Assembly: GCF_001640025.1 (NCBI RefSeq)
Contig: NC_031673.1
Span: forward strand, 744,001 to 808,000
Direction: 5' to 3'
Length of the DNA: 64,000 bases
Source: Sugiyamaella lignohabitans
Taxonomy: Eukaryota; Ascomycota; Dipodascomycetes; Dipodascales; Trichomonascaceae
The notes below the pieces were generated by a model. It saw only the letters and a list, made by a program, of their open reading frames with translations, ran no database searches and had not been told where the DNA came from. Below, piece by piece: positions 1 through 62,669 of the stretch (position 1 is the stretch's first letter; each line of letters starts with the position of its first letter). The position numbers and the translations under genes are program-made.

Positions 1-2525
1 GGCACTGACACTTTCTCCACTTCCAGCAGTGCTGCTACGACTGTTGGACGAAGAGCCACCACCGCTTCCAGATTTCTTGAGATTGGCCCGGTATTCGAGC
101 ACATTGTCAAGGAGCGATAGTTGAGAAGGCATCTCATATTCGGAATGAAGACCCTGGATATCACGCGAGTAACTGACCCACAGTGCAAAATGCGTGTTAG
201 ATACCACTCGCAATTGAATATCAACGTGAATGTGTGAGCCTTGTAATGTCACAGCACAGATATCGGTAACTGGATACAACCGTGGCAAGTCTCCATCATT
301 CGTTTGATTCGGGTCTAAAGCAGCCACTTTACGGAAAGCCTGCTCGGGAATCACCAATCCTATTGGTAATGGATTGCCATCTGTACCCAGTTGATAGCTG
401 GCAAAAACCTTTTCCAGGTAGTCAGTGAACCTGGGGATAATGCTAGTGACGGGTGCTCCCCTCAAAACCTTGTTACTGTCTCTTCCATATCCCAGTAAAG
501 TACCTACAAAATACTCATTATAGTCAACAACAGTGCACCAGCGGTCAATAACAATTACTCCGGCCATGAGCGGCATCGATGTAATGGAGATCTCAGCAGT
601 GGCTTCAAAATCATCGTACGACTTGAGTTTGGCGAAACACGGCATATTAGCCGAGTGGGCTTGCACCGTGTGGTATTTGTATCCTGGGAAATCGGCGTTC
701 CATTTCTCCAAAGACTCGACATCAATATCACTCAACCCGGGAATCAGGTCCTTGAGTGACATTTCCCTAAGTTTGGGCTCGTCTTCTGGCAGTGTCAGTT
801 GTGGGGTGAATATTTTGTAGTTATCACCAGTTATACTCAACAGTTTCCAGTCCAGTGTAGACACTTTCAAATAAATTTTATCGGCAATGACTTCATTAAG
901 AACCCAGGAAATAAACCCATTATGACTTCGAACCCAGAAACTAGCCAGACTGTGGATTCCATTTGACTTGACTATAGGCAGAATATGGCCACAGATAAAT
1001 ACAGATTTGGGCTGGCCGCCGTTCAACCCGTTATTAATAATATTCTCGACATACTGTCCATAGTTGTCCTCGAGAATATCGAAAATCGACCGTTTTTTCA
1101 AGTCTACCTGAGACAGGCCCAGCAGCAGACAGGCCATGTCGTTTGCAGACAGAATTTTATATGGGCTTTTAAATTCGGTAGTAAACACCGAGTAGTTGGA
1201 TGCGTATTTTGACGAAATGGGTTGAACTGGCGTGATATTGACACTGCTGCTGTTGTTGCCTTGAGCCGAAGACGGCAGAATAGCCAGGTTCAAGGTCGAC
1301 ACCGAGTTAGTGATAGATGCAAAATTGACTGTTGAGTGGCCTCGTTGAAACACCAGCGGTCGTGGCATGTCGATATAAGCCATTGACAACGCACTCAACA
1401 GCTGGTTCTGAAGCTGTGGCGATGATTCACCAAGACCAGCAGCCACTCGTTTCTTTTTAGCTGATTCCAGATCAAGAACTGCTCGCAAATCCGTACTACC
1501 ACTGGTGGCTCCAATACTAGGAGTAGCACCACCAGTTACCCCGCTGCCAATAGCAGCAATGGATCCAGTAGTATTGACCACAGGACTTCCCTGGAGAATC
1601 AGCGGTGGATTCGATACCGACCGAGGCATGGTACTGCTCCAGCCAGCTCCACCATGCGAATCAATAGGTACTGGCAGCAACTCGGCCGCCTCATCAAGCA
1701 GAGCAGAAAACGCGTCCAAATGCTCATTGACCAGATTACTATTTAACTGACCACCATTAGCCGCGGTTTTCAGCGACGAGCTCGTGAGATTACCGAGAAT
1801 CGACAATGTCGCTGTAGACGCCGACCCATGTAAACTACCAAAAGCCTGGTCGGCCATGAGCAGCTGATTCAATGATAAAATATTCGGCTGTTTCTGTTGT
1901 TGCTGCTGCTGATGCTGTTGATGCAATTGCTGCTGTGAAGAATGGGCTTGATTATCAATAAGCGTTTTTCGCAGCTCATTCAACATCGCCGGATTCGATC
2001 TCAGGATCTTTATCGACCTTTTCAGGCCCTTCAACCGCATACTCAGCGCCCTATTGGCGTCATAAGCGTACGAAAACGCATGCAACGACTCCGACGCAAA
2101 CGACAAAACCGTGTCCAACGACACACCTCCACCGTCACTGTCTCCTGTTAGTAACCGCTACGGGGTCCCGTGCTGCCTCCGGCGGCTGGGGCTGCGCCCC
2201 AGACCCCCCGGCTCCTCTCGCTTCGCTCGAGTCGTTTCGTCGACGGTCCTTGCCATCTCCTGCGAAGCAGGAGCAACGGGGTCTGGGGCGCAGCCCCAGC
2301 CGCCGGAGGCACACCCACCACCACTCACCTGGTGCTGCTGGTCCTACGGGACTCGGCCCTGTCAACGGCGGACCGGCGCCTGTTTTCGGCGTATGAACTG
2401 CGTCGCGACACCGGCGACGTCAGTCCCTCGCTGTCCTCATCGCTCGAGTCGTCGCCGTAGTTGAGCCGGAACGACGGTCGCTTGCCTATCCGTCGCGGGA
2501 GGCTGTTGGATGCATATTCCGACAT
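1..2525 (-). CDS. PSK1: PAS-domain protein kinase (PAS kinase, PSK1/PSK2 type), N-terminal part
   Basis: Join of 2329-2525 and 1-2137 on the minus strand; about 778 residues are visible and the gene continues past the left edge. A basic, serine-rich start (MSEYASNSLPRRIG) is followed by a glutamine-rich stretch and then a PAS-like block near residues 380-440 (SANDMACLLLGLSQVDLKK). A second PAS-like segment lies near residues 585-640 (GVIVIDRWCTVVDYNEYF). This resembles the N-terminal half of yeast PAS kinases, nutrient-sensing Ser/Thr kinases that phosphorylate Ugp1 and translation factors. The kinase domain would lie outside the window, so the assignment rests on the PAS region. The intron (about 2138-2328, donor GTGAGT) ends at TACTAACAGGAGACAG; the second AG keeps the frame, the first would give an immediate stop. 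A second intron precedes the ATG. Any other PAS-domain protein is the alternative. Confidence 0.68.
2174..2311. repeat. GC-rich double-hairpin element, complete pair (PAS-kinase intron)
   Basis: Plus unit 2174-2234 (tail type 1), 22 nt core, minus unit 2257-2311 (tail type 2). The outer ends are TGCCTCC and GGAGGCA. It lies inside the coding-region intron of the PAS-kinase gene. Confidence 0.95.
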
Positions 2526-2531
2526 GTTCGT

Positions 2532-2757
2532 CTGCTTCGCATGTTAGTACACCTCATCTCGTATTTTCGTGATCCGTGATGGAGGGGGCATGCCTCCGGC
2601 GGCTGGGGCTGCGCCCCAGACCCCCCGGCTCCTCTCGCTACGCTCGAGTCGGGCATCGACGGTCCCAGCCATCTCCTGCGAAGCAGGAGCTATGGGGTCT
2701 GGGGCGGAGCCCCAGCCGCCGGAGGCAAATGCCCCCCTCCCAGAGTGCCACACTCAC
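2532..2757 (-). other. 5' UTR intron of the PAS-kinase gene
   Basis: Minus-strand donor GTGAGT at 2757 and a TACTAAC branch motif followed by AG at 2535 or 2532, just before the ATG at 2525. It encloses a complete paired GC-rich element (2591-2727). If correct, the gene has two consecutive 5' introns, each carrying one copy of the same element. Confidence 0.6.
2591..2727. repeat. GC-rich double-hairpin element, complete pair (5' UTR intron)
   Basis: Plus unit 2591-2651 (tail 1) and minus unit 2673-2727 (tail 2) around a 21 nt core containing ATCGACGGTCCCAGCCAT. The flanks GGAGGGGGCA and TGCCCCCCTCC continue the inverted repeat outward. Confidence 0.95.
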
Positions 2758-3621
2758 CTTCTGAGGAAGTTCCAGTGCTGGAGAGTCGTTACTACCTAGT
2801 GATCTGGTGCAACTGGCGGGCCGTGATGTGGGATGTCGGTGCAAGTCGATTGCGAGACACCTGTGAAATCAGCCGGAATACCTCGTGAAGAAGAGCGAAA
2901 TCAGCTGGCCAGCTGGAATTTCAATTAGTTTCTGTTGTCGATTGATTCGGGTGCAAAGAATGAACGAAGTTTGGTTCGAAGTCAAACTGCTGGTGCTGCC
3001 CAGGGTGCGGGTGTCCGAGTGAAATATTCACCAAATATGCCACAAGAGAATCAAATCACAGAATCAGCGGAAAATCACAGATTACTGAAGAACGAGAATG
3101 AAGTCGGGAATGAAAAGAAAGCCACCTGGAACCTGGCAAAAACCTGCTGTATCGAGCCGGATGCACTTTGTTGAGCGGGTTGAAATGTCGCACCACTGCA
3201 AAACCCAAACCAAAACAAAACCAACCAACAACAGCCGCCGATTGATTGGGGTTCTATTTCTTTTATCAGTCACAAAACCAAATTTCAAATTTCACTTGAC
3301 AAAACCCGCTGGATTGATTTCGAGACAGGTGTTACTGCTGTAAAATTGTAAGCTTTTTTGTTCCTGCTCACGCCTGGCTCTCGATTTCCGTTGCTAACTG
3401 GGATGAGTATTTTTTTCTGTTGATTGGAAAGATTAAAAATCTGATCACTGTCGGATTCTGCAGGTGAGCTACTGCTGCCTGTTTTTCTTTTTCCTGCTGC
3501 CTGCTGCTGCGTCTGCTTCTGCTTCTGCTTCTGCTGCTGCCGGGATTTATTAGGCATTCCCGACCCTGCTGATACCGCTCCGCTATCGTGGGACTTTTTT
3601 TTTTTCAGAGGGTGTGGACTC

Positions 3622-3676
3622 GGCCTCCGGCAGCTGGGGCTCCGCCCCAGACCCCGTGGCTCCTGCTTCGCAGGAG
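3622..3676 (+). repeat. GC-rich double-hairpin unit, solitary and diverged
   Basis: Single plus unit with tail 2 (CTCCTGCTTCGCAGGAG). The head carries substitutions (GGCCTCCGGCAGCTGG). It is followed by TGGCTAGGAC, a relic of the central core, so it looks like half of a decayed pair. Confidence 0.85.
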
Positions 3677-3869
3677 TGGCTAGGACAGTGTGGTTGGGTT
3701 AATTGAGGTTGGTTTTTTGGGTCAGTTGGTGGGCGTTTTCTAGCGGGCAGTGGAATTATTCAGGGTGTCTTTTTACGAGCTTCGGTGCGATGGGTGTCTA
3801 TGTACCATGCTCTCGTACAGTAGTCCTCCCTACTGTTTCTGTACTCTAATGCACTACCTACTACGTATG

Positions 3870-4060
3870 CTCTGTACTTACTACTTTGTATTACTACTTT
3901 GTATTTACTCCTCTGTATTTACTACTCTGTATTTACTACTCTGTATTTACTACTCTGTATTTACTACTCTGTATTTACTACTCTGTATTTACTACTCTGT
4001 ATTTACTACTCTGTATTTACTACTCGGTATTTACTACTCAGTATTTACTACTTGGTATTC
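3870..4060 (+). repeat. 14-nt tandem repeat (CTCTGTATTTACTA)n
   Basis: About eight perfect and five variant copies of CTCTGTATTTACTA. The period is not a multiple of three and the unit has no stop in any forward frame, so all three frames stay open and give spurious tyrosine/leucine-rich reading frames. Confidence 0.95.
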
Positions 4061-4610: not shown

Positions 4611-5766
4611 GGGTCGGCCTGCCAGTAAAGGCGTTTTGTTGTCTAGTGAAACAGCATCCTGGAGACTAGAATTGTTAATATAGCAGGAATAAGGTATAAA
4701 CGCACAATTTAACTCCGAAATTGCAACTGGTGTTTGAAACCGAACTCAAACTGAAATTGGAAGCGAAACTAAAACCGTCTCCGAGTCTAACTGGGTAAGT
4801 GTGTTTTAAATTGACTTTTTATTTGTTTAACTATGGTCTGTAGACATTTGTTGATTTCTGCCTACTCTCTTGACTCCGTTGAGTCTATTGCCTTTGAGCT
4901 ATAAAATACTGTTTTAATTATGAATGTAGAACAGATCTGTGGTTTCCTGCTGCTTCTGGTGCAGGAATTGTAAATTATAAAACTGAAGTTGATATGAATT
5001 TTGTGCTTGCTGTTTGTTGTAGTTATTATAGTTACGTCTGTCTGTTGGAGATGTTGGCCCAGTGGTGGTGGTTCTGGTTCTGGTGGTTGCGGTGCTGCTG
5101 TTGCTGCTGCTGCTGCGTGATACTCCTCAGGCAATTGCAAGAACCAGACCACCTACTTTGGCTTCAATGGTATCAAGTTGATCAAACAGGCATCTAATAC
5201 AGAATGTAGAATATAGCATGCAGAAATAGACTTTGAGTATAGGTGCAAAGTTAAAAATATATCTACAATGTATAACCCAATTAATGCTATCCCATGGGAC
5301 TGGGACTATCCATTGAGCAGATATTCTCTGACCTCCACCTTTACTTTTGCCGAGGGATTCGATTAGTAATTGAGAAAGCAGAAAATATTGACAGTTTTTT
5401 GAGATCTGAACAGTGATTTCTGATTGCGAGCATGATTATTTATTTATTTAGTTAGAAAATGACTGGCTATTTTTAACCATACAGATATCGGATGATATAA
5501 GCTCAGGATGATAAGATAGGAAGATAGAGTTTTAGAGCAGGATCTGCCACTGCCTGTAAGCAGTAACCAGCTGCAAGGAAGCCTGGAATAACGCGCCGAA
5601 TTTCTTGGTTGGGAAAATGTTCTTACCGCATTCAGCCTGCCGCGGCCACATCCAGGTCCTATTGAAAACGCACCCCCACCTTCCCAAACCAACAATCACC
5701 ACCGCTACACCGACCGCCAGCCTCAGCAACGGTATCCCGTCCTCACCACCCACCTCCCGGAGACCT

Positions 5767-5983
5767 GACTCCGAGCGAAGCGAGAGGAGTAGCGGGGTCT
5801 GGGGCGGAGCCCCAGCCGCCGGAGGCAGCACCTGCACCTCTCCCTCGGCAACTGGTACGCAGATTAATCGGGCGCATCGGTCCACACGACCAGCTGCCGT
5901 GTTGAGTGGGGTTTGGGGGAACGGGCGATGCCTCCGGCGGCTGGGGCTCCGCCCCAGACCCCGTTGCTCCTGCTGCGCAGGAG
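5767..5983. repeat. Two GC-rich double-hairpin units, heads inward
   Basis: Minus unit 5767-5827 (tail 1) followed by plus unit 5929-5983 (tail 2 with loop TGC instead of TTC). This is the only neighbouring pair in the window with heads facing each other, so these are probably two independent halves. Confidence 0.9.
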
Positions 5984-7525
5984 ATTGCTGGGACCGTAAG
6001 GGAGGGGGGGGGAGGGTTGTTCTTGGTTGAGTGGCTCGGCATGCTTGGCCTAGACTCCCGGTTCGGGCTCAATCTTACGGTCTGATATTGCTCCGTTAGC
6101 AGCAGTTCTCGTCCTTTCAAGAAAATCGCAAGTGAATTAGTTATCATAGCCGATATCTCCAGTCTCGGATGACTCCTTTCTTAACAATTTTTTTACTTAT
6201 TTTAATTTTAGAGACGTGTGAGGTGGATCACCGATTGCTGACCCTGAGAGTGGACAGGAAAACACTGAGGCTTTCTATTGTCACAGGGTAATTCGGCTGT
6301 CCAGACTATTTTACTGATTGATTATTTTTTTTTTTTTGACCGAATGAGTTTTCTTCATGTATTTGTTTCTGGCTTGTGTAGGAGAAATATCAGCCATATG
6401 AGTACTGGCAAATTATCTTTACGGAATATGGTGCGGTACTGTGTTTAATAAGAGACTCTAGTCTTGTATGAACATGATCTACTAGGGTGCGAGTGTTATT
6501 TTTTTAATATCTTTTAATACCAGTTCCATAGGGACATTACCCCTGAGATAACTCTGATGCACATTCTGATGCAGGGCACCCGATTCTACTTATCAGTTGC
6601 CGAGTTTGGCTTATCTCTAGCGATCATATGCACCAGACGAAGATATCAAAACGTAGATCTGAGATTAGGACCATTCCAATTGCAATAAAAGCTGCAAAAC
6701 CATTGGATTCTGCCATATTAGTTAGCTAGTTAGTTATTTAGAAGTGCTGAGCTTCAACTGATTGACGTAATAGACGTATACAGTATGTTTATTACGAAGA
6801 CAGACCTGGTGAGCCAAAATGATCTGACTGAATACCCAGTTCCATGAACATAAAATGTTACTTGTTACTTCAATCGCCAACTAATTTTGCCAAGAGTTCA
6901 TTGAAGTTTTCAGCAGCTGAGCCGTGAGAGAGAGGGAGAAAGAGAGAGAGAGTGCCAATTATAGCATCATTGGAATACTCTTTGTACGATAGACCGAAAT
7001 CACTTGTTCCGCTCCTATCCGCCTAATTTTATGTCGTTGAAGCAGTTAAGTAATATATTATTTGGGGTCAATACTGGTCATATTTATTAAAATTAGACCT
7101 TGGGGATTGAATATATCCTAGATACAGTGTATTTCTTTCAAAAAGGAGCCAGAGTTTATTATTGAGAAGACAGATAATGTCCCAGGAACTGTTCTGGGAA
7201 CTGAATGATGCTCTGAGCCATGCCGATAATCAATATGATAGCAACACTCAAATTTCTACTTATTTTTCAGCATAATTCCCTTCTACTTGCTGTAATTGAA
7301 TTATTAGAATAGATCTGAGGACAAGGTACCAAATTTATATCAACATGAATATAAATATAAATGATATCCAGCGTCACCACCCCTCAAGCTTACGGCTGAA
7401 CGGACCGGCAATCACCAGAATAGCGAAGAAGAGCTTCAACATCCACAGTCCAAAAAAAGCCATTTTCATTCCCGAAATTATCACCTGAACATTCCATTCC
7501 CCAATAACAGGAGCCCCCACCCCCC

Positions 7526-7586
7526 GACTCGAGCGGAGCGAGAGGAGCTACCAGGGTCTGGGACGGAGCCCCAGCCGCCGGAGGCA
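7526..7586 (-). repeat. GC-rich double-hairpin unit, solitary
   Basis: Single minus unit with tail 1, about 240 bp upstream of the MON2 start codon. Confidence 0.92.
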
Positions 7587-7825: not shown

Positions 7826-10800
7826 ATGTCCACGGTACATATATTGTCGCTGGAGCTCAGCAACCTGATTTCCCAGACCAAAAGACGCAATTCTGAGCTC
7901 AAACAGGTACGTTTGACTGTGTACGAGGGGGAGGGGTCATGCCTCCGGCGGCTGGGGCGCTGCCCCAGGCCCCGTGGCTCCTGCTTCGCAGGAGATTGCG
8001 GGGACCCTGGGGTTCTAAGGGTGGGGTCGAATGGGTCGCAATGGAGGGTTCGTTGGCGGTGTTGGAGCTTGTTTTGGTACTAACTAATTGGCAGGAGAGT
8101 GAGAAGAGTCTGGCAAAATTACAGTCATATAAATCTGGTACCGACGAACGAAGGTTCTTGAAAGGTAGGTACATTGTGAGGATGGAACCAGCTTGTAGCA
8201 TGTTCGTGATTGACCTAACAAAATAGAATTGGCAAACGACCCTTCTTTTATATCGCCGTTTTTGCTGGCAAGTTCGACGAGGAACGCCAAGTATGGAGCC
8301 ACTGCCATACAGTGTTTACACAGTTTATTGATCATAGAAGCTATATCATTGAGTCAGATCGATGCGGTAATAGAAGCGCTACAGGAAGCAACCCATCTTG
8401 GAATTGATATCCAGCTCAAAATTCTTCAGAGTCTGCCGGCTCTCATTGAAAACTATGGCCAGGAATTGACCAGTGACCAGATTGTCAACATCCTTCATCT
8501 CTGTTCTATTTTGCAGGGTGGTAATAAGAGTGTGGTCGTCATAAACACAGCCTCTGCCACTCTTCAGCAATTGATTATTTCTGTATTTGAAAGAGTGGTC
8601 AGGGAGGACAGAAATGCTGCTAAGGTTCCTCCAAAGAAGACGTTCGAAGTAGATGTCGATAGCGACGGTGGTGCATCTAACAATGCCAATAGCAATGGCT
8701 CGGGACCCATTACGGGCACCAACAAAATTCTTATCAGTCCAGTTGCATACGATGCTCTCATGATATTCACCGACTTGTGTAATTTAACTGAAAAGCAAAA
8801 ACCTGTCTTTTTGAAAAAGTTCAATCATCTGCCTGAAACGTTTGGACTCGAGCTTTTAGAGAGCATACTGACAAACCACAGTGATATTTTCTTAAAGCAT
8901 GTCGAATTTGCATACATTTTACGGACCAGAGTGGTTCCACTGTTATTGCGGGCATTTTCTGAGAAACGTGAGTTCTCTGTTACTGTTCGTGTTACGCGAA
9001 TTTTATATCTGTTGCTGAGACGCCAGCTACCAATCTTAAAAGTAGAAGGTGAGGTCATTTTATCTTTACTGACTCACATGGTGGATGAAGATGCTGCTCC
9101 ATATTGGAAGCGTCTGCTTTGTATGGAAGTTTTCCAGGGAGTCTGTTCAGAGTTTTCTTTAGTGCAAGAGATATACCAGGAATACGATGCCCAAGAGGGT
9201 ACTAGACGAGCTATTATAAAGTGTTTGATTGCTGCATTTGGTAAAATCAGTCTCGAGAGGAAAGATGTTATTGGCTATGGTCCTGTATCTATGCCATTTC
9301 GTTTACCAGATAATGCTGCCACTGCTTCTACCAGTGGTCTTCATGACGAAAATGACCCTGTCGACTATTCTGATGTAGTCGGAATATCGCTCAAGACATC
9401 GGTTGCTAGAGTTCCATGCATCGACTTGCTTGACAAAAGCGAGCCACCAATTGTTCCAGATACCTATCTTTATTACTTGGTTCTGGTCTGTATCAATTCG
9501 CTTTGTGAAGGTTTAACCCGAAAGGTGTTCACACAGTCGCCTTCATCATCATCAAGTAATGCCGATATGCCTGTCAAATTTATTAAAGAATGCTGGCATG
9601 AGCTTTTGAGCTGTTACAACACCTTTTTCCATGCCACCATTGATATTGATTTATATCATTCTTTGGTTCGCTCAGTTCAGAAATTGACTCACTCTGCAGG
9701 ATTCCTCGATATTTCTGAGCCAATGGATGCGTTCATGTCTTTGATTGGTTCATTCTCTGTTTTGGTGCTTGAAGACGTGGACGGTGGCAGAAAGTCGGCT
9801 AGTGGCCCTAGCTCGAGTTCTAGTCCCAGTGTTGCTGCGACTGCGACGAGCATGGCCAGGAATCTCTTGAGCGTCGAATCAATTGTGGGTACTTTAGGAT
9901 CTATTCGTGAACACCAGCGATCAACAAGTAACGCTGGCTTACCACAAAATACAAGCGCTTCGCCTGCTCCTACACATCCTCCTACCAACCCGGGAGGACA
10001 AAACACAGCTGGCAGATCACCGGGCTCGCCAACTTCACGAAATATTTTATGTTTTAGAGCGTTGCTGAACCTAGCACATTCTCTCGGTCCTAAGCTTTCT
10101 ACTAGCTGGGATATTGTGTTCCGTACTATTCAACTTGCCGACTCGTTAGCAAATGGCTCTGGAAAGAAACGTGCTCGCCAAGTTCAGGGATCCCAGGTGT
10201 TTTCACAGCTTAGTGAGTTCAGTGCTGTGGACACGTCTTTTAGACGACTCTTGGATTCAAGCAAGGAATTTTCTGAATCTGCCCTTTTGGATATGATTGC
10301 CTCGATTTGTCGTATCTCCGAAGCTACGCTTGGTATCGCAAAACCAGGCCTTAGCGGTGATTTATTTTTCGCGCTTGATTTGTTGCGAGAGATTGGTAAT
10401 ACAAATATGAACCGTCTTGTATCGTCATCAGACAAAACATGGCCAAAACTTACTGATCATCTATTAAAAGTGATTGACACGAGGTCGGTTGAAGTTCTAG
10501 CTCGTTCTCATTCTGCAGATGTATTGAATGACCTCATAACCAAGGCATCGACAGCAGCTGTTACAAGCTCAACTGTGAACAGTGACGCTCAAAGAAAAGT
10601 CATCAGTACCTTGAAATCTGAAATTGACCGAGTAGTCAAGGTGCAAATTCCTAGTGAAGATTCATCCATTGCAAGCACCGAATCTGATATTCATGTGTCT
10701 GCTATTGACACTTTGAATAAAGTGCTTGACCTTTGTGGTGGTAAGTTTATAGACGGCTGGGATTTGGTGTTTGAAATCATAGACACAGTTTTCACTCCAT

Positions 10801-16000: not shown

Positions 16001-17294
16001 GATAATAAGATATCCTTGATTGACCTCGTTGTTTCGAAGACGAACAAGATTGTTGTTACAAACAGTAGTAGTGAAACCAAAAGTCAAGTAGGCAACAAAA
16101 GCTGCTACATACATGATGACAGTGATAAGACCCATTTTTTCTCTCCAGGCCATTTGACGGTCTTTAGTGCGCATACCAAAAAGTTTGAGAACAGGAGCAG
16201 GGGCCCAGAATGTGACAATTTTACAGTAAGCATGCCAGAACGAGGTAGGTTTTTTTGCACCTGGCAAAGGTTTATTAGCAGCTTTTTTCTCTGACATTTT
16301 TCTCGACATTTCACGGGCTCCACCTTTACCACTACCAGGACCATCATCGGCATTCAAAGGCTCGACCTGGTCGGTATCATTGTCATTAAGATTCGATGGG
16401 CCGTAATGGTCCATATCATTTTTAACACCGTATGGATTTGTATCGTCATAAGATTTGTTTCCATTCTCATATGGATTATCTTCGTAATTATCCTCGCCGC
16501 CATTTTCATCGTTCAAACCATAAACATTACGACCACCTTTAGCGTCAACATACACATCACCGCCATCAGCATCGTATTCCTGTTTTTCATTTGGACTCTG
16601 TGAACGACTAAGATCGGTCATAGGAATGTCTCTTGTATGAGGGTGTTCATAAACAGCGGGGTCAGCACCGGACGGAGCGGCCTGCACCTGGATGCGACCA
16701 GCCTGCTGAGCAGCAACCTGTGTATAATGATATTGAGGGTGATCCGGGTCGATTCTTGATCTTTCTGGTCTCACCAATGATCTCTTTCTGCCAATACCGT
16801 CATGCTCATACTGGCCAATAGTAGCATTCGAACTGCTTTTAGGCATTTTTCCTGGCGACCCAAAATTGGCCTCTTCATCAAACGCTTCATACGCACCTCC
16901 CGTGCCAGACCCTGACGCACCACCGGCGGTTCCGCCCTTACCAACGAAGTTTCTGAACGAACCGGACCTATCCACTGGACCGGGAGTTAGTGACTGGACT
17001 TACGGTGGGGGGACATGCCTCCGGCGGCTGGGGCTCCGCCCCAGACCCTGGTTGCTCCTCTCGCTTCGCTCGAGTCGGGCGTCGGGTGAGCCAGTTCCGG
17101 GTGGGATTGGGGGACCAAAATCCAGCAAATTCCCGCTAAACCTCTCTTCCCAAGCAAATCCCAGCTACCCAGCAACCCCTAACAGCAGCGACACCCCACG
17201 CCCGACTCGAGCGAAGCGAGAGGAGCAACCAGGGTCTGGGGCGGAGCCCCAGCCGCCGGAGGCACATCCGACACCCCCCAAACCAAAACTTACT
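13091..17294 (-). CDS. CHS3: Chitin synthase, class IV (CHS3 type)
   Basis: 1294 aa, membrane UDP-GlcNAc chitin synthase making most cell-wall chitin. The N-terminal ~250 residues are hydrophilic. Membrane segments lie near 280-305 and 525-555, and the catalytic core follows with VDADTK near 913, LGEDRFLS near 1035 and the signature QRRRW near 1073. Several membrane helices follow at 1090-1215. The start codon is split by an intron: exon 1 ends ATCAACA at 17294, donor GTAAGT at 17293. The branch is CACTAAC, the acceptor CCAG ends at 16975, and the next bases are TGGATAGG. Splicing therefore creates ATG GAT AGG (MDRSGSFRN) in a good CAACATGG context. No ATG occurs in the 120 nt upstream. The 319-nt intron carries two double-hairpin units. 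Confidence 0.95.
17016..17264. repeat. Two double-hairpin units in the CHS3 start-codon intron
   Basis: Plus unit 17016-17077 and minus unit 17204-17264, both tail 1, heads outward, with a long 126-bp spacer. Both lie inside the CHS3 intron. Confidence 0.93.
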
Positions 17295-18051
17295 GTTGAT
17301 ATTTTATTCCAAAAAAAAGTTGACAACCGAACCAACGAGCGAACACAGCTAATGATAAAGAAACTGGAGTTAGTTTGCCAGGTAGTGTCAGGTGTTTCGT
17401 ATTAGACCCTGCCGATGCTAGGCTATTTACGACGGATTCCACGACGTAAACACTAGTGAAAGGTGTTGAAAAACCAAAAAAACGAGAGTGTGAGATTGTG
17501 AGATTGATTTTATAGCCTCGATCAAGACCAAAATATAAAAAGTCAAGTGTCAAAAGCAGAAAGTCTGGTGTGTCTTTTTGCTTGGTCAGGGAGGTCTGAG
17601 GAGATAATGAGACAATGTGCAAGGGCTCATAAACAAAATATTCCCATGCTGGAAAAACGGTAGCCGCGCTTGTCCTGGTCGTCTATGCAAGCACTCACAT
17701 GTGTCTGTTTACAAATATAGCTATTTTCAGCATTAAAGATTGTCAATTTCGCGTTCATCCTAACCCAAAACGGCCTGCCCATCACTCGCAAAATAAACAA
17801 ATTCTTTTTTTAGCACCGCACGGCGCTATCACCCCCTGAGCTGCATCTCCGCCGGGGGGCCGCAATTCAGGGGGTGGTGTGTGCCTCCGGCGGCTGGGGC
17901 GCTGCCCCAGACCCCGTGGCTCCTCTCGCTGCGCTCGAGTCGGGGCGTCGAGGGTCCCAGCAGTCTCCTGCGAAGCAGGAGCTACGGGGTCTGGGGCGGA
18001 GCCCCAGCCGCCGGAGGCAACGGGCCACTCAGGGGATGGATTCGCGTGTTA
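17295..18051. other. Intergenic region upstream of CHS3
   Basis: Holds the CHS3 5' leader and promoter, an AT-rich stretch, an inverted repeat near 17835-17870 (ACCCCCTGAG and TTCAGGGGGT), and a complete double-hairpin pair. No gene seen. Confidence 0.6.
17882..18019. repeat. GC-rich double-hairpin element, complete pair
   Basis: Plus unit 17882-17942 (tail 1), core GGGCGTCGAGGGTCCCAGCA, minus unit 17965-18019 (tail 2). It ends 33 bp from the stop codon of the neighbouring minus-strand gene. Confidence 0.95.
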
Positions 18052-27796: not shown

Positions 27797-27841
27797 TGGT
27801 CCCTTAGTAGTAGAAGCAGCGCGTTGGATTAAATAGACCCG

Positions 27842-43956: not shown

Positions 43957-44085
43957 TCGCTCGCGAAGCGAGCACAACGGGTCCGGGCAGCGCCCGGCCG
44001 CCGGAGGCAGGCCCCGATCCAGGTTTCAGGCACAGCTCGCGAAGCGAGCACAACGGGTCCGGGCAGCGCCCGGCCGCCGGAGGCA
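43957..44085 (-). repeat. Two tandem double-hairpin units, subfamily B, inverted
   Basis: Minus units 43957-44009 and 44035-44085 with the same B stems. Together with 43473-43600 they make a large inverted duplication. Confidence 0.93.
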
Positions 44086-46984: not shown

Positions 46985-47262
46985 ATCCCCCATAGAACTC
47001 ACTGTTTATGCCCCTCCTGTGCCTCCGGCGGCTGGGGCTCTGCCCCAGACCCCGTGGCTCCTGCTTCGCAGGAGAGTCCCCTCGCTGCCTCCGGCGGCTG
47101 GGGCTCCGCCCCAGACCCCGTAGCTCCTGCTTCGCAGGAGAATAACAGCCTCGACGGGCCCTCGACGCCCGACTCGAGCGAAGCGAGAGGAGCAGCGGGG
47201 TCTGGGGCGGAGCCCCAGCCGCCGGAGGCAGTGTGGTCTCGTAGAAAATCACGGTTGATTGG
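46985..47262. other. Convergent gap PTC5 / epimerase, filled by elements
   Basis: 278 bp of which about 75% is the triplet of double-hairpin units at 47020-47230. Confidence 0.7.
47020..47230. repeat. Triplet of GC-rich double-hairpin units
   Basis: Plus 47020-47074 (tail 2), plus 47086-47140 (tail 2), minus 47171-47230 (tail 1). The outer plus unit appears to be a tandem duplication. Begins 36 bp after the PTC5 stop. Confidence 0.95.
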
Positions 47263-48266: not shown

Positions 48267-48484
48267 TGCCTCCGGCGGCTGGGGCTCCGCCCCAGACCCC
48301 GTTGCTCCTGCTTCGCAGGAGATTGCGAGGACCCTGGGGGTCCCATGGTTTCAGTCGCTCGCGAAGCGAGCACTACGGGGTCTGGGGCAGCGCCCCAGCC
48401 GCCGGAGGCACTACCCACCTCCCCCCTGGAGCTCGCGAAGCGAGCACAACCAGGTCCGGGCGGAGCCCGACCGCCTCTAGCGGC
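48267..48484. repeat. Double-hairpin cluster with A/B chimera
   Basis: Plus unit 48267-48321 (A head, tail 2); minus unit 48355-48410 with an A-type head (CTGGGGCAGCGCCCCAG) but a B-type tail (GCTCGCGAAGCGAGC); and a degenerate minus B unit 48430-48484. The middle one is a recombinant of the two subfamilies. Confidence 0.9.
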
Positions 48485-49840: not shown

Positions 49841-51592
49841 ATGGTTTCTGATTCAGTTGAAGAAAAGTCCAGAGATGGACCCGAGGGGTATCAACCTTCT
49901 TACGAGGGCTTCGATCAACAGGCTGAGAAAGAAAAATCCATTGGCGTCCGCAAGGTCGAGATCTATTCTTCTCAGTATAAACTCGTTGGTAAGATTTTTG
50001 TGTTTTTCTCAGTTTTCCTCGTCTCTTATGCATATGGTTTAGACTCAAATATCCGTTATGTATACCAAGCCACTGCCACTTCTTCATATGCCGAGCATTC
50101 TTTGTTGTCTACAGTAAACGTCATTAAAGCCGTCATTGGTGCTGCTGGTCAACCTGTATATGCTAGACTTTCCGATGTGTTTGGTCGTTTGGAATTGTTC
50201 ATCGCCGCTATTTTGTTTTATGTTGTGGGTACTATTATCGAGTCCCAGGCTTACGATGTTCAGAGATTCGCTGGTGGTGCCATTCTGTTCCAAGTTGGCT
50301 ACACTGGTATTGTGTTGCTTATGGAACTTATTGTTGCCGATTTCTCGTTCTTGAACTGGCGTCTTGTAGCCTCTTTTGTTCCTGCTCTGCCTTTTATTAT
50401 CAACACCTGGATCAGTGGTAACATCACTGGTGATATGGGTTTAAGATGGTCTTGGGGTATTGGTATGTGGGCAATTATCTTTCCCGTTGCTTCTATTCCT
50501 TTGTTGATTTGTTTGATTCACATGAGATACAGAGCTCACAAGTCTGGTCAAATGGACGCCATCAAGGCTGAAGAAACCGATTTCCAACGTCTGGGCTTCT
50601 GGGGATTCATGAAACACCTCTTCTGGCAATTAGATGTTGTAGGAATTATTCTCTTGATTGCCGTATTCGCTCTTATTCTAGTACCATTCACTATTGCCGG
50701 TGGTGTCGAAGAAGAATGGAAAAAGGCCAAGATTATTGCCCCTCTTGTGATTGGATTCTGCTGTATCCCTGTTTTTGCCGTCTGGGAATTCAAGTACGCT
50801 CCTATTCCTCTTGTCCCTATGAAGCATTTGAGAAACAGAACTGTCTACTCTGCCGTTTGTATCGCTGTGCTCATCAACTTTATCTGGTATATGCAGGGTG
50901 ATTATATGTACACTGTGCTGGTCGTCGCTGTCAACCAAAGTACCACCAGTGCCAACAGAATCACGTCTCTTTACTCTTTCGTGTCGGTCATTACCGGTAC
51001 CATTCTCGGTTTGATTGTTGCTCGTCTCAGATACTTGAAGGGTTTCATCGTCTTTGGTACCTGCATGTGGTTGCTTTCAATGGGTCTTCTCATTCACTAC
51101 AGAGGAGGCACCGATTCCAAGTCCGGTATCATTGGCAGTATGTGTGTTCTTGGTTTCGGTGCTGGTCTATTTACATACCCTGTCCAAGTCATGATCCAAG
51201 CTAGTGTCAAGCATGAACATATGGCCATTATCACCTCCTTGTACTTGGCCAGTTACAACATCGGAAGTGCTCTTGGTGGCTCTGTTTCTGGTGCCATCTG
51301 GACCCAAATTCTTCCCAAGGAACTCAGCAAGAGACTCTCTGACCCCGCTCTTGTTACTGCTGCTTACGGTAGTCCATTCACCTTCATCATCAGCTATCCC
51401 TGGGGCACCCCCGAGCGTATGGCCGTCGTTGAAGCCTACAAGCACGTACAAAAGATCTTACTCATTGTTGGAACCTGCTTGTGTGTTCCCCTCATTTTCT
51501 TCGCCCTCATTATTGATAACTACAAGCTTGAGTCTGTCCAATCTCTTCCTGGAGCTGAAAAAGACGGTGAATCCGAGTCGCTCTCCAGTTAA
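49841..51592 (+). CDS. Siderophore-iron transporter, MFS ARN/SIT family
   Basis: 583 aa, single exon. A proton-coupled importer of ferric siderophores. The hydrophilic N-terminus (1-48) is followed by about 14 membrane segments starting near residue 48 (IFVFFSVFLVSYAYGLDSNIRY). SIT-family signatures: SNIRYVYQATATSSYAEHSLL, VIKAVIGAAGQPVYARLSDVFGR (MFS loop 2-3), GFGAGLFTYPVQVMIQASVKHEH and the region SYNIGSALGGSVSGAIWT. A large extracellular loop before the last helix (PWGTPERMAVVEAYKHVQ) is typical. The exact substrate cannot be told. The promoter carries iron-GATA-like sites, consistent with induction in low iron. Confidence 0.92.
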   Translation: MVSDSVEEKSRDGPEGYQPSYEGFDQQAEKEKSIGVRKVEIYSSQYKLVGKIFVFFSVFLVSYAYGLDSNIRYVYQATATSSYAEHSLLSTVNVIKAVIGAAGQPVYARLSDVFGRLELFIAAILFYVVGTIIESQAYDVQRFAGGAILFQVGYTGIVLLMELIVADFSFLNWRLVASFVPALPFIINTWISGNITGDMGLRWSWGIGMWAIIFPVASIPLLICLIHMRYRAHKSGQMDAIKAEETDFQRLGFWGFMKHLFWQLDVVGIILLIAVFALILVPFTIAGGVEEEWKKAKIIAPLVIGFCCIPVFAVWEFKYAPIPLVPMKHLRNRTVYSAVCIAVLINFIWYMQGDYMYTVLVVAVNQSTTSANRITSLYSFVSVITGTILGLIVARLRYLKGFIVFGTCMWLLSMGLLIHYRGGTDSKSGIIGSMCVLGFGAGLFTYPVQVMIQASVKHEHMAIITSLYLASYNIGSALGGSVSGAIWTQILPKELSKRLSDPALVTAAYGSPFTFIISYPWGTPERMAVVEAYKHVQKILLIVGTCLCVPLIFFALIIDNYKLESVQSLPGAEKDGESESLSS

Positions 51593-51760: not shown

Positions 51761-51822
51761 TGCCTCCGGCGGCTGGGGCTCCGCCCCAGACCCTGGTTGC
51801 TCCTCTCGCTTCGCTCGAGTCG
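51761..51822 (+). repeat. GC-rich double-hairpin unit, solitary
   Basis: Plus unit with tail 1, 169 bp after the transporter stop codon. Confidence 0.92.
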
Positions 51823-52267
51823 TTCCGTGGCATGCCAGAATACTTATCTTGGTACACTCACAGCTACATTCCATAATCCGGCAGATGCTGATGACGAGAA
51901 GTTGCAACCATGGCCCCTAAGTGTATATCCACGTGTTGGAGTAATCACCTAAAATGCCAAAAGACTATGACATGGCTTCCCTTTGTGCAATTGTGAATGA
52001 GGCACAGCTCATTACCAGGTTGAGATGGGTCTGCTGAATTCATTTGGATGAGCAACGTAAAGAGTAGTCCTATCAAGCTGCAATATGGCAAGTGCAAAAT
52101 GTGAATACTTGGGCGATATATCAACTAGAAGATGGTCGCCACGTGCCGGACTGCTTCTGACAGATCCACTACTCCTGTATTATGCGAATATAAATACAGT
52201 TAATGGCGGTGAGTTAAGGCAAAGTGAAGAATTCAGGAACTGATGCCCCAGTCTCGGGTTGTGGGCC

Positions 52268-52387
52268 TGCCTCCGGTGGCTGGGGCTCCTGCGAAGCAGG
52301 AGTTTCTCTGAGACAGTCGACGTAACGACTCGAGCGAAGCGAGAGGAGCAACCAGGGTCTGGGGCGGAGCCCCAGCCGCCGGAGGCA
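52268..52387. repeat. Double-hairpin pair with an internal deletion
   Basis: The plus unit 52268-52302 has lost the right arm of the head hairpin: its head runs directly into tail 2. Core 52303-52326 contains GTCGAC; minus unit 52327-52387 is intact (tail 1). Confidence 0.9.
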
Positions 52388-53273: not shown

Positions 53274-54078
53274 CGGGGTCAAACCGCTTCCAGCTCCATC
53301 TAAGCCCCTTACATTTAAACGGGCCATCAAGGAGTCATTAAAGGCAGGACGCGTACCCTTGGTTATTAATGCCACTGACTTCTATTGGTTCAGTCATTCA
53401 CTAGAAAAGCCAACTAGTTTTTTGCAGCGATGAAACTACACCGAAGTGTTAATTCACCACTTCACCAACACTTGCGTCCAGTCGAACAACAATCTGGCCA
53501 ACAACACACTACATGACTATGACTATTAGTACAACAAGCATCCATTAAAATCATGAGTCTTAACAGTGGCACGCACTTTGCTGCGCCTGGTTTTGCTATT
53601 TATTGTGGCTTCCTCAGAGTCGCCAACCTTGGATATCACTCCTAGCCATCCCGATCTTACACCCCTACTGAGGTTTTTACTACACTGTCGCCGCTGTCTG
53701 CCGTTCGACATGTTTTCAAAACACACAGTTTCACGGGGTCGATTTAAATCATCACACAGATAGTTGTTTGCTAGAACTGGCTCCATCATCACACTAGTAC
53801 ACTTTGGTACCATTACAATTCACGCTGCCCTGGTTTCTCTCACTGGCTGGCTATCTACTCTGCTCTTGGTCTATTTCTCTCTGGTCTCTCTGTCTCTTTC
53901 TGGTCTTTTTTGCTACTCTCTTCTACTACTACCACTTCTGTTTGATAAAAAAGAAAATTGGAAAATCCTCGCAAAAAAAAAAGGCTCTTAATCGAAAACC
54001 CGAAAAAAAAAGCTCTACTTTCTACTGTTTCTATTGGACATCATTCTAGTTGGTCGTTAATTGGTCTCTACTATTTTG

Positions 54079-54410
54079 CAGGTGATTGAGGGTGTTTGTA
54101 GGTGACTGAGGGTGTTTGTAGGTGACTGAGGGTGTTTGGAGGTGATATGATCTGGAGGTGATTGAGGATGTTTGCAGGTGATCTGGGGTATTTGCAGGTG
54201 ATTGAGAGTGTTTGGAGGTGATTTGATTTGGAGGTGATTGAGGATGTTTGCGGGTGATTGAGGGTGTTTGTAGGAGATTGAGGGTGTTTGCAGGTGATTG
54301 AAGGTGTTTGTAGGTGATTGAGAGTGTTTGGAGGTGATTTGATTTGGAGGTAATTGAGGATGTTGCAGGTGATCTGGGGTATTTGCAGGTGATTGAGGGT
54401 GTTTGTACTC
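54079..54410. repeat. Minisatellite with 20-nt unit and higher-order structure
   Basis: About 15 units of AGGTGATTGAGGGTGTTTGT. They are regularly interrupted by a 16-nt variant (AGGTGATTTGATTTGG) and a variant with ATCTGGGGTATTTGC, giving a higher-order period that appears at least twice. Confidence 0.92.
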
Positions 54411-54680: not shown

Positions 54681-54734
54681 CCTCTAACCACTTCCGGTGC
54701 TCTGCTATGCATACAAGACTGGCCTCTTTCCTGG

Positions 54735-58225: not shown

Positions 58226-58382
58226 TGCCTCCGGCGGCTGGGGCGGAGCCCCAGACCCCGTGGCTCCTCTCGCTACGGTCGAGTCGAGCGTCTGGTATCC
58301 CCAGCAGTGCTCGAGGACCACCCAGTCTTTCCCGCGAAGCGGGAACCACGGGGTCTGGGGCGGAGCCCCAGCCGCCGGAGGC
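58226..58382. repeat. GC-rich double-hairpin pair, variant tails
   Basis: Plus unit 58226-58286 (tail 1) whose head loop segment is inverted (CTGGGGCGGAGCCCCAG), 42-nt spacer, and minus unit 58329-58382 with tail 3 (TTCCCGCGAAGCGGGAA). Confidence 0.93.
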
Positions 58383-58479
58383 ACAGTCCCTCTAAACACG
58401 AATAAAAAAGGATATATAAGGCGACCAGTTAACAGGACAAATAAAAAGTAAAAGACAAGAGGAGGAGGAGGATGTGCGT

Positions 58480-59398
58480 CTAGCAGTTGCATGCGGATGG
58501 CGACGACGAGGCCGTGGCGGGCGTGTTGAGGTCGACACGACCGCCGGCATCGGCGCCGGTGCGGGCTCCGTTGACGGCCGTGGCTACTCGTCGACCTGAT
58601 TCTTGTGGGATCTTATTGGCAATGGCCAGGAACACTTGACGCACATTGAGTCCGGATTTGGCCGATGTTTCGAAAAACAGCAGATCTTCGTTCTCTGCTA
58701 GAGCCTTTCCTTCTTCAATAGCGACTTTTCTGGCTGATTCAGACCCTCCTTCAGACCCTGCTGAACCGTCGCCATTAGCGGCATCACCTGACGAGCCGTC
58801 TTCATCCGATTCTACTAAATCCACTTTATTACCGACCAGGGCAATGACGATGCCAGGACTGGCTTGGGCCTTGAGTTCGTTGACCCAGTGACGGGCCTTC
58901 ACAAACGAGGCCGGTTTAGTCACATCGTAAACTACCAGCGCGCTCTGAGCATTCCGGTAGTACATGGGCGCCAGCGACGCAAATCGTTCCTGGCCGGCTG
59001 TATCCCAGATCTCGAATTTGATGGTTCTGTTGGGCAGAGTACACTTCTGGGTCAAAAACGCTGCGCCAATTGTGGGTTCTGCAATCCGGTTAGTTCCTGG
59101 TTTTACATGATAGGGGTGCTGTGCCTCCGGCGGCTGGGGCTCTGCCCCAGACCCCGTGGTTCCCGCTTCGCGGGAAGGCGTGGGGGAACCCCGGGAAACT
59201 CCTGCGAAGCAGGAGCTACGGGGTCTGGGGCAGAGCCCCAGCCGCCGGAGGCACACGAGGGCAAAAAAACGTACCTTTGTTTTCCTGGAAGTCGTCTGAC
59301 ACGAATCTGAGGACGAGAGAGGACTTTCCGACGGCCGCTTCGCCAAGAAGGACCAGTTTGACTGAGGTCGTGGGTTTGGTGGTCGGGGTCGAGTCCAT
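58480..59398 (-). CDS. Rab5-family GTPase (VPS21/YPT52 type)
   Basis: Exons 59275-59398 and 58480-59078, 240 aa. An endosomal Rab that drives early endosome fusion and vacuolar sorting. P-loop GEAAVGKSS at 19-27, effector region [12 protein letters not shown], switch [24 protein letters not shown] and ETSAK guanine motifs, and a C-terminal SACNC for double geranylgeranylation. The splice (GTACGT to AACTAACCGGATTGCAG) joins NK|EPTIG exactly as in Rab5. An Asp/Ser/Gly-rich insertion after NKVDLVE (about 25 residues) is reminiscent of Ypt52. The intron 59079-59274 carries a complete double-hairpin pair and is open in one frame, giving a misleading longer reading frame. Confidence 0.95.
59122..59253. 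repeat. GC-rich double-hairpin pair in the Rab5 intron
   Basis: Plus unit 59122-59175 with tail 3 (TTCCCGCTTCGCGGGAA), 23-nt core, minus unit 59199-59253 with tail 2. The pair makes up two thirds of the intron. Confidence 0.95.
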
Positions 59399-60203: not shown

Positions 60204-60267
60204 TGCTACCTCCGGCTGATGGGGCTCTGCCCCAGACCCCGTGGCTCCTCTCGGTTCACTCAAATCG
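60204..60267 (+). repeat. Decayed GC-rich double-hairpin unit
   Basis: GCTACCTCCGGCTGATGGGG followed by a recognisable right arm and a mutated tail 1 (CTCTCGGTTCACTCAAATCG). Both stems are broken. The subterminal CAGGGGGTG motif upstream is present twice. Confidence 0.8.
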
Positions 60268-60679
60268 GACGTGGGAAAGTGTCGCAAGCTTGATTGTGAA
60301 AAAAATTGGAAATTTTGACTTTGTCCAGACTGACTTTTTCAGTTTTTAAAAGCTTCGGGATTCTGTAGAGGAGCTGCAGTGAACGGCTGCTTGCGATAAG
60401 AACGGTTGTAAACAGATCGGAGGTCTCGAGGAAGTTCATGCTGCAACTCGGACCAAGTCATTTTGCGATTGTATTTTGAAAATAATCCTTAAATAACGAT
60501 AGATCCTGTATTTTAGAACGTTTGGTGGATCGACTTAGTAGCATAGACTTGAGCTTAAGCAATATAAAAGGAGAAATTTGTGGTATCAGATCAAGGTGGT
60601 TGTGATAGCAGTTGGCAAAGGACCGAACGCCACTGGGCATAGCTTATAGACAAGATATAAATATGGCATCATATGAAGG

Positions 60680-61440: not shown

Positions 61441-61756
61441 GTCTGGTATCAGACGTGTACATGTACAGTTGGTTAGTCTGTCCTATTTCCAATAGCAGCA
61501 GTGGAAGTGGAACCGAGACAACAGTTACTGGATAAATTCTGCTTCAACTTTCACCAGTGTACCAGTGCAGTATTGGCCTTCCGTTATGAAGCAACCTTGA
61601 GATTCTACTCAGTTTATTTCACAAAAATCATTTCTCATCTCCAATGGAATGAAGTCATTAATTGCTGACAGTTGAGGGTCGCAGAATGAGGCCGCCAGCC
61701 CATCTTCATCCAAACCAGATCCCAGTCATCAAACCCAGTTGCCTGACCTACCCAAG

Positions 61757-61812
61757 TCGCTCGCGAAGCGAGCACAACGGGGTCTGGGGCAGCGCCCCAG
61801 CCGCCGGAGGCA
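61757..61812 (-). repeat. Chimeric double-hairpin unit in the RING gene intron
   Basis: Minus unit with A-type head and B-type tail (GCTCGCGAAGCGAGC), the same chimera as at 48355. It lies 38 nt before the acceptor. Confidence 0.92.
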
Positions 61813-61850
61813 CACCCTTTCCCCCAAAGACCCGTACTAACCCCCAACAG

Positions 61851-62422
61851 AAGACCATAACATTACAGCACCGGAAGTACCCGGACCAGCGGCCGACAGA
61901 GAGACGTCGACGCGGCAGACGGTGGCCCAGCAGCATCTGACGGACTTTTTCTCGTTTGACAGCGGTGACTCCAGTGGAAATAATGCCCGAGACAGTGCCC
62001 GGGCCCCGAGAAGAGAGGACTTCCAAGTTCTAGCATCGGCCCTAGACAATCTAAACCACGAGTCACCCGTAGTTCAGAACCTGATTCAACTTTTAAATCA
62101 GGACGTCGAGAGTATGAACTCGCTAGGACCGACTCAGGCTCAAGGAGTATCTCAACAGTACCTGGACTCGCTCGACCGAATCGCCACTAAAAAGCTGAAA
62201 CCCACCGACGAATGCGCCATCTGTGCCACGAAATACCTCCAAGACCAGTACCCCCTCGTGGTCCGCCTCCCGTGCCACCCAAACCACCATTTCGACCTCG
62301 AATGCATCGGCCCCTGGCTCAAACTCCACGCGACCTGTCCCCTGTGCCGCAAACAACTTCTCCAAAAGGAACCAGTAGTCATCGACGACAGCGAGGACGA
62401 ACTTGACGACATGTACGGGTGA
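61851..62422 (+). CDS. RING-H2 protein similar to S. cerevisiae YBR062C (last exon)
   Basis: The final exon begins after TACTAACCCCCAACAG at 61850 and encodes about 190 residues to the stop at 62420-62422. The RING-H2 finger is complete: CAICATKYL, then CHPNHHFDLEC and CPLC with the expected His pair. The surrounding LKPTDECAICATKYL, QYPLVVRLP and the C-terminal DELDDMYG align with YBR062C, a RING protein that also has an intron in yeast. A likely E3 ubiquitin ligase; substrates unknown. The first exon is unresolved: no GTRNGT donor lies upstream. A short exon starting MKSLIAD near 61651 with a weak GTTGAG donor would keep the frame. Confidence 0.82.
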
Positions 62423-62440
62423 ATGAGGGGGGTCCGGGTG

Positions 62441-62669
62441 TGCCTCCGGCGGCTGGGGCTGCGCCCCAGACCCCACTGCTCCTCTCGCTTCGCTCGAGTC
62501 GGGGCTTGGGGTGGCCAGCAGCGTGTTTGTAATTAGTATATATGTATTTGTAGTGGTAGAAACTAGACTCCTGCCAATAAATATCAGTTCACCGAACGCG
62601 ACGGTCCTAGCAACCTCCCGCGAAGCGGGAGCCACGGGGTCTGGGGCGCAGCCCCAGCCGCCGGAGGCA
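62441..62669. repeat. Double-hairpin pair between convergent genes
   Basis: Plus unit 62441-62501 (tail 1) begins 18 bp after the RING gene stop; minus unit 62615-62669 has the tail variant CTCCCGCGAAGCGGGAG and ends 12 bp from the bZIP stop. Flanks GGGGGGTCCGGGTG and CACCCCGACCCCC extend the inverted repeat. Confidence 0.94.

Follow-up and report, generated by a model that had tools for sequence, protein, structure and literature searches.

The 64-kb window analysed here (the whole stretch, positions 744001-808000 of contig C4 in the 15.93-Mb, four-contig genome G000 of the yeast Sugiyamaella lignohabitans) is densely populated by short GC-rich units, each composed of two hairpins in tandem. 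With confidence slightly above even, we favour reading this family as non-coding mobile DNA hairpins that live in a nuclear genome and resemble the repetitive extragenic palindromic (REP) elements and REPINs of bacteria. Our analysis shows that the family is present in high copy number at unrelated sites, forms pairs that lack a target duplication where sampled, is polar towards genes, has DNA-type triloops and has a head identical to a bacterial one. An earlier interpretation of the window made from its letters alone (the sequence-only reading) had described the double-hairpin units; the heads-out pairs, the head-to-gene polarity, the absence of target duplication together with a loop signature of single-stranded DNA, and the bacterial head identity go beyond it.

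The head of a unit reads TGCCTCCGGCGG, a triloop closed by a 7-bp stem (CTGGGGC/GCCCCAG) and then ACCC, and can also be written as (T)GCCTCCGGCGG followed by stem and ACCC. An exchangeable tail hairpin follows, of at least four types: SL1 (CTCCTGC-TTC-GCAGGAG), SL2 (CTCCTCTCGCTTCGCTCGAGTC), SL3 (GTGCTCGCTTCGCGAGC) and SL4, or variants. Allowing up to two mismatches, TGCCTCCGGCGG matched 57 times in the window, and 55 units, including a truncated copy at 52268, were left after dropping the hairpin-less matches at 1628 and 29505. A covariance model of the head gave 54 matches at E<=0.01, spanning 2175 to 62668. Joining neighbours across gaps of 400, 300, 200 or 150 bp yields 28, 30, 33 or 37 loci, and the 56 units at 31 loci counted originally are thus correct within the counting rules. 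Rfam returned no match at gathering score for the whole window or for 8 bacterial or viral loci; 7 microRNA-type matches on 4 kb of the window all fell far below their gathering scores.

Across the 15.9-Mb genome there are 5,858 exact copies of the 12-mer head (2,942 forward, 2,916 reverse) compared to 2 occurrences of the reversed control pattern (0 and 2), which excludes a chance origin, and copies are present on all four contigs rather than confined to one. As to the density that the sequence-only reading called extreme, the window is about twofold denser than the genome: its 64 kb contain 50 exact heads, i.e., 0.78 vs. 0.37 per kb. Further counts come from a non-random 264-kb sample (1.7% of the genome) made up of the window, a 60-kb block of contig C1 picked for its density, plus 14 pieces of 10 kb each, scattered at round coordinates. 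Eight loci of 3 kb (L001-L008) do not enter any count. The sample holds 224 units, arranged as 52 heads-out pairs (<=170 bp) and 120 other units, and 13 of the 14 scattered pieces contain them, L015 being the one without. Scaling by 224 units per 192 exact heads in the sample, we estimate roughly 6,800 units in the genome. Degenerate copies, e.g., at window position 60207, show that the family holds both young and old members. The surroundings proved to be nuclear as proposed, with MON2-like, chitin synthase, class II tRNA synthetase, RPN11-like, Hsp70-family and NPL4 genes in the window. Named relatives of proteins from this genome belong to Geotrichum, Magnusiomyces and Trichomonascus.

The double-hairpin unit described earlier is real, but it is often half of a larger heads-out pair, which is the candidate copying entity. 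Inverted pairs of 120-150 bp with exact heads are heads-out in 1,025 cases and heads-in in 9 genome-wide; as among REPs, inverted doublets with a spacer are over-represented. SL2 is combined with SL1 in 40 of the 52 sampled pairs, and the spacer core CGTCGACGGTCCCAGC is found with up to two mismatches in 13 and with up to four in 21. Nearest-neighbour identity of the pairs ranges from 0.81 to 0.98, while the 100-bp flanks are at background for the best 11 matches of the 52 pairs (0.51-0.64 vs. a mean of 0.57), indicating dispersed copies and not segmental duplicates. Pairs are also less diverged than singles (0.35 vs. 0.81 head mismatches, p 0.019). The entity that is copied is likely the heads-out pair of about 138 bp, i.e., an SL2 unit, a spacer of about 22 nt and an SL1 unit. 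As to the proposed mobile origin, dispersed copying stands, with near-identical pairs (up to 97.8%) in unrelated flanks on four contigs, whereas movement itself is unobserved.

An adjacent target duplication of at least 3 bp was present at none of the 52 pairs (about 1.2 expected by chance at 3 bp), and flank repeats of these pairs, direct or inverted, did not exceed shuffled sequences. The 5' flank of the 224 aligned units is G-rich (G 0.40-0.66 at -12 to -3), followed mainly by T/C and C/G. At singles, target duplication was significant when pooled (107, reached in 0 of 200 shuffles), but after dropping singles less than 150 bp from another unit (77 left) it was reached in 19 of 300, and due to this weakening we do not claim it. 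Guide pairing by flank-internal complementarity (GGGGTC vs. GACCCC) was rejected as no better than shuffled (255/300).

The loops of both hairpins are of a type that is stable in DNA. Read on the bottom strand, tail loops are GC-GNA-GC in 192 of 207 cases (148 of them GC-GAA-GC) and head loops are GNA in 151 of 201; GNA-type loop hairpins are described as extraordinarily stable in DNA in the available text of PMC10527192, a study that works with a CGCGAAGCG segment. Perfect head stems are seen in 187 of 209 units. Selection for a folded sense RNA was rejected, since the G-U bias it predicts is absent from the head stems (7 G-T vs. 12 A-C). One entire pair (20492-20629; SL1/SL2, 138 bp), folded as single-stranded DNA, forms one long hairpin of -70.8 kcal/mol (z -11.7). 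The DNA-type loops and the lack of a G-U bias suggest that the hairpin structure matters as single-stranded DNA.

The units are strongly ordered with respect to genes, which are represented here by 76 greedily chosen open reading frames (ORFs) of at least 200 aa; these are not curated models, and intron-containing genes may be missed. Just 6 of 172 loci lie within called ORFs, though 45% of the sample is called coding, so that the units, like REPs, are high-copy short imperfect palindromes in intergenic DNA. Measured from gene 3' ends, 18 of 123 units lie at 0-50 bp and 14 at 50-100 bp (random placement 3.6% each); from 5' ends the corresponding numbers are 1 and 2 of 125. Past 73 gene 3' ends, the first unit turns its head to the gene in 52 cases and its tail in 4, while 17 ends have no unit (52/56 where present); wherever the first unit lies no more than 211 bp from the stop codon (46 cases), it is head-facing. 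At 68 gene 5' ends the head faces the gene in 49 cases and the tail in 6, with 13 lacking a unit (49/55 where present). The polarity holds in every part of the sample and is weaker in the scattered pieces: head/tail/none are 12/0/5 (3') and 13/2/1 (5') in the window, 16/0/0 at both ends in the C1 block, and 24/4/12 and 20/4/12 in the 14 pieces. Neighbouring units with a called gene between them follow the order tail-head-gene-head-tail in 39 of 47 cases, and nested brackets (+++---, ++--) occupy some intergenic regions. Isolated units within 400 bp of a gene end keep the polarity (head vs. tail 29-11, 21-2, 14-1 and 5-1 at isolation of at least 171, 300, 500 and 1,000 bp), and therefore pairs alone do not create the pattern.

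Judging from the base sequence around them, units probably begin immediately beyond the end of the mRNA. T6 and TATATA, both putative 3'-end signals, sit between stop codon and unit and are scarce beyond it; T6 occurs 10 times in 1,720 bp before the unit and never in 5,250 bp after it (35 genes). A+T content is 0.56 before units and 0.42 after them. Heads are perfect in 74 of 84 gene-proximal head-facing units vs. 54 of 73 inner units (permutation p 0.0014 on means, a difference that depends on a small number of strongly diverged inner units). Pre-existing G-runs as the cause of polarity were rejected, as the first 100 bp past stops in the 264-kb sample, with units masked by 25 bp, contain 1 GGGG vs. 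22 CCCC on the sense strand.

The head recurs in bacteria. Among 84,980 prokaryote species genomes, a 28-mer of the head hit a single record, a Desulfovibrionaceae assembly (L029), where 33 of 33 letters are identical to the yeast head consensus and the copy lies one base past an ORF stop. The source genome G001 contains 135 copies of GCCTCCGGCGGC vs. 7 of the reversed pattern; it is one of three enriched genomes (135/7, 76/5, 97/2) among 148 of the phylum. The genome with 76 copies, G037, has no match to the hairpin pattern, leaving two of the three shown to carry the element. In the family of genome G041, GCCTCCGGCGGCCAAR is present in 22 of 59 genomes, G001 included, and its reversal in none; copy number is patchy, being 0 in 37 and above 90 in 3. 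In bacteria the grammar consists of GCCTCCGGCGG followed by a stem that varies and then GA(C/A)(C/T)CC. Thirteen of the 30 G001 occurrences read have it in full, 4 of them inside ORFs (called here with GC3 weighting). In the loci examined, 15 of 17 elements with the complete grammar in G041, and 6 of 9 elements outside ORFs in G001, have a 3' end as their closest gene end and point the head at it. Run on 64 loci from bacteria or viruses, the covariance model trained on yeast gave 50 matches at E<=0.01, and 19 of these reached at least 41 bits; since these loci were chosen by prefix, this bears on the hairpin and GACCC part.

The match extends to viral contigs. All 30 non-loop head letters are identical in copies of L061, L093, L096, L100, L102, L107 and L109, and six GC-rich viral contigs carry heads-out pairs, of 123-128 bp in L093, L096, L100, L102 (two) and L109 and of 98 bp in L061; L093 and L109 hardly differ at the element. 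The pairs of L096, L100 and L102 sit in gaps adjoining terminase or portal genes. For the L102 terminase, the sole protein traced, the named relatives belong to the Alphaproteobacteria Polymorphobacter and Sandarakinorhabdus. By eye, about half of the 26 viral contigs with a head match show the head hairpin and the rest are coding-like; 11 reach 35 bits. Phage records gave 5 weak matches, none a full element. Plasmid matches comprise 33 records, 24 from Streptomyces, mostly with the hairpin part and without the prefix. On the Streptomyces plasmids the hairpin + GACCCCG part (near CTGGGGCTCCGCCCCAGACCCCG) often lies under annotated helix-turn-helix genes.

We know of no name for the GCCTCCGGCGG hairpins of Desulfovibrionaceae and GC-rich phage-like contigs. 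They resemble the yeast family in a head identical throughout (L029) or outside the loop, in the heads-out pairs of six contigs and, in two genomes, in lying mainly past stop codons, head first. They differ in that many have an A-rich 5' foot where the yeast has GGGGTC, in a different second hairpin or none and, on the phage-like contigs, in a stem longer by one pair; neighbours in two bacterial genomes are mostly heads-in among the matches listed. These likenesses may reflect a shared ancestry of yeast and bacterial elements. A separate question is whether stable GC hairpins near gene ends could have converged on the same head without common descent, to which we assign nearly an even chance. 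Stems and loops vary among bacteria, Streptomyces plasmids have the hairpin and GACCCC part alone, the 76 12-mer copies of G037 never fit the hairpin pattern, and a transfer route is not known. Against convergence, the 11-nt prefix GCCTCCGGCGG is not part of the stem and is nonetheless shared along with stem and GACCCC, and the identity of all letters in L029 and of the non-loop letters in seven further loci points the same way. More speculatively, and rather doubtfully in our own estimate, selfish hairpins may have crossed domains: GCCTCCGGCGG-headed bacterial or phage-like elements would have entered a yeast lineage and multiplied to about 6,800 nuclear copies while lacking their own transposase, and would today act as polar boundary elements at most genes.

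Among known systems, REPs, BIMEs (bacterial interspersed mosaic elements) and REPINs are described in the available text of PMC3116915 and PMC3733652 as GTAG- or CGTC-tagged short palindromes of bacteria, intergenic and near ORF 3' ends; REPIN doublets are less diverged than singlets (PMC3116915), and CGTC REPs likewise are without transposase association (PMC3733652, Table 1). The yeast family shares with them the high copy number of short palindromes, intergenic placement, inverted doublets with a spacer, better-kept doublets and proximity to ORF 3' ends, and it is REPIN-like too in that target duplications were not found. It differs in being nuclear, in having two hairpins per unit and in lying also beside gene 5' ends. 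The base composition of the 224 aligned units shows no unpaired terminal GTAG or CGTC tag, CGTC being confined to the pair spacer. Because tag and transposase were both sought and neither was found, we do not file the yeast family as REP. In the accessible part of the open-licence literature we found no case of a REP/REPIN-like hairpin population in a eukaryotic nucleus, and searching with two head sequence strings returned papers unrelated by title and abstract. Should the REP/REPIN-like reading hold, it would provide a tractable yeast for genetic tests of hairpin-driven spread and head-to-gene polarity, and the cross-domain match lets transfer and convergence of tiny selfish DNAs be tested against each other directly.

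The REP/REPIN-like reading implies a mechanism in which the pair would be copied via single-stranded DNA folded into a hairpin and handled by a trans-acting enzyme. Units may insert, or persist, immediately beyond the transcribed portion of genes. Those that face a gene may be kept because insertion is coupled to transcription, or as polar boundary or terminator-like elements. No transposase or reverse transcriptase (RT) with matching termini, as the sequence-only reading envisaged, was identified, the RT and DDE_1 candidates that exist being known from their ORFs and not from their ends. The genome has 13 RVT_1 (RT) matches and two DDE_1 (pogo-like) ORFs of 800 and 974 aa, at G000:C2:1705346 and C1:5904871. 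A Helitron Rep/helicase search gave no match, though the control search was equally silent. The enzyme of REPs and REPINs is a Y1 transposase. A corresponding RAYT (REP-associated tyrosine transposase) link in bacteria was rejected, with Y1_Tnp matches in 7 of 12 genomes yet none in the element-rich G041.

Several observations weigh against the REP/REPIN-like reading. No Y1 transposase was detected in the yeast genome at E<=1, in a search for this family whose control was positive in 6 of 14 genomes. Neither an empty site nor a polymorphism between strains nor any transposition event is shown. Singles (120) outnumber pairs (52) among the sampled loci, 31 of the 52 pairs have other spacers, and isolated singles give a marginal direct-repeat signal (the 19/300 above). 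Pair insertion alone leaves the polarity of isolated singles unexplained. Close neighbours in the bacterial genomes G156 and G196 are heads-in in 11 cases and heads-out in 1 among the matches listed; the corresponding numbers for G041, within 350 bp, are 0 and 7. In 30 pairs near genes the arms carry 3 proximal vs. 5 distal mismatches with 25 ties; selection is thus not separable from age, and this same-age comparison does not demonstrate selection on gene-facing arms.

The units could instead be primarily functional gene-boundary elements, i.e., polar, terminator-like or fail-safe 3'-end signals under selection, with copying secondary, which we regard as unlikely. This explanation would account for the 46 of 46 head-facing first units near stop codons, for the TATATA and T6 signals that precede units and are scarce beyond them (10 vs. 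0 for T6), for the lower divergence of gene-proximal heads (74/84 vs. 54/73 perfect, p 0.0014) and for the same side and orientation in the bacterial G041 (15/17). It fits poorly with the 17 of 73 gene 3' ends that have no unit, with units upstream of genes, which are antisense to them, and with arrays of three tandem units. Moreover, the G-U bias that would favour folded sense RNA is missing (7 vs. 12), proximal arms are not detectably better preserved than distal arms of the same pair, the p value depends on a few strongly diverged inner units, and sequence beyond units is in any case high in G+C (A+T 0.42 vs. 0.56 before them).

Invasion of the nucleus by a mitochondrial-type GC cluster or double-hairpin element, to which we give a small probability, would explain the GC-rich double hairpin, module merging and dispersal (compare the available text of PMC4478555 and PMC10085805). 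The former compares 89 positions of yeast mitochondrial GC42 clusters and discusses AG target-site nucleotides; the latter gives up to 14 double-hairpin elements for each Schizosaccharomyces mitogenome. Such elements share the GC-rich double hairpin, modular merging and non-coding nature of the yeast family, but they are mitochondrial and far fewer, whereas the window copies sit among nuclear genes and the closest sequence matches found are bacterial (the species' own mitochondrial DNA lies outside this comparison). The likeness to mitochondrial elements noted in the sequence-only reading hence stands for architecture, while in sequence, pairing and gene-end placement the closer match is the bacterial REP-like intergenic hairpin. 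Even less probable is a short interspersed nuclear element (SINE)-like family copied by long interspersed nuclear element (LINE)-like elements of the genome: in its favour are the 13 RVT_1 matches, of which six form two equal-score groups at different sites, but the 5' end of the units is conserved while the 3' end is variable, and there is no clear target duplication. Least credible to us is an ordinary miniature inverted-repeat transposable element (MITE) with terminal inverted repeats, moved by a DDE transposase. Like MITEs the family is short with inverted ends, it forms inverted pairs, and the genome has two DDE_1 ORFs. However, this reading fails the defining feature in our sample, as none of the 52 pairs has a target duplication of at least 3 bp (1.2 expected by chance at 3 bp), and single polar units with four swapped, modular tail types are ill-suited to such an element.

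Within the window, further heads-out pairs with SL2/SL1 tails lie at 2174-2311 (SL2 tail, spacer, SL1 tail; 138 bp), 2591-2727 (137 bp), 17882-18019 (near-canonical spacer, 32 bp beyond the stop of ORF 18052-18798(-)) and 40408-40547 (140 bp, within the 5' end of the called ORF 36196-40647(-)). SL1/SL2 pairs are found at 18931-19066 (136 bp), 33611-33747 (137 bp, with an SL2-tailed unit in tandem ahead of it at 33531-33595(+)) and 44822-44977 (156 bp), and other tail combinations at 29954-30097 (SL2/SL2, 144 bp), 48267-48410 (SL1/SL3, 144 bp), 58226-58383 (SL2/SL1b, 158 bp) and 59122-59253 (SL1b/SL1, 132 bp). Heads-out brackets occur at 27612-27797 (SL2/SL1, 186 bp) and 41049-41227 (SL1/SL2, 179 bp), and wide ones at 17016-17264 (two SL2 units, 249 bp), 35739-36126 (388 bp, between convergent ORFs, 15 bp and 69 bp past their stops) and 62441-62669 (SL2/SL1-like, 229 bp, 12 bp past the stop of ORF 62682-63947(-)). 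At 43473-44085 a nested ++-- bracket (43473+, 43547+, 44009-, 44085-) has a CGGGC head stem and an SL3 tail, and a ++- bracket at 47020-47230, starting 35 bp past a stop codon, consists of unit 47020+ and then pair 47086-47230. The pair at 52268-52387 (120 bp) has a truncated left arm, its head joined to the SL1 of the other arm at a CTCC overlap; this join at CTCC, common to head loop and SL1, exemplifies palindrome-arm loss via short homology.

Single units, whose ends are approximate because they were set at head + 65 bp, carry an SL1 tail at 3622-3686(+), 5929-5993(+) and 7940-8004(+), a tail called SL4 at 5763-5827(-) and an SL3 tail at 61748-61812(-). SL2 tails are present at 7522-7586(-), 22588-22652(+), 32925-32989(-) (within a called 226-aa ORF), 51761-51825(+) (downstream of ORF 49841-51592) and in a diverged unit (45.4 bits) at 41678-41742(-) inside the called ORF 41371-43437. 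The degenerate unit at 60207-60270(+) scores 34.4 bits vs. 61.5 for a consensus copy.

RT match sites include G000:C1:3056215, C3:656590, C3:703545, C1:3598344, C2:642216 and C4:1331194. The six RT ORFs in two equal-score groups (993-1145 aa) suggest a young LINE-like family, which could supply RT in trans. A minisatellite-like tandem repeat is common to C4 and C2 (window 54075-54407 and L017 5747-6083, up to about 92% identity), and a short tandem array of TACTACTCTGTATT-like units occupies window positions of about 3890-4050.

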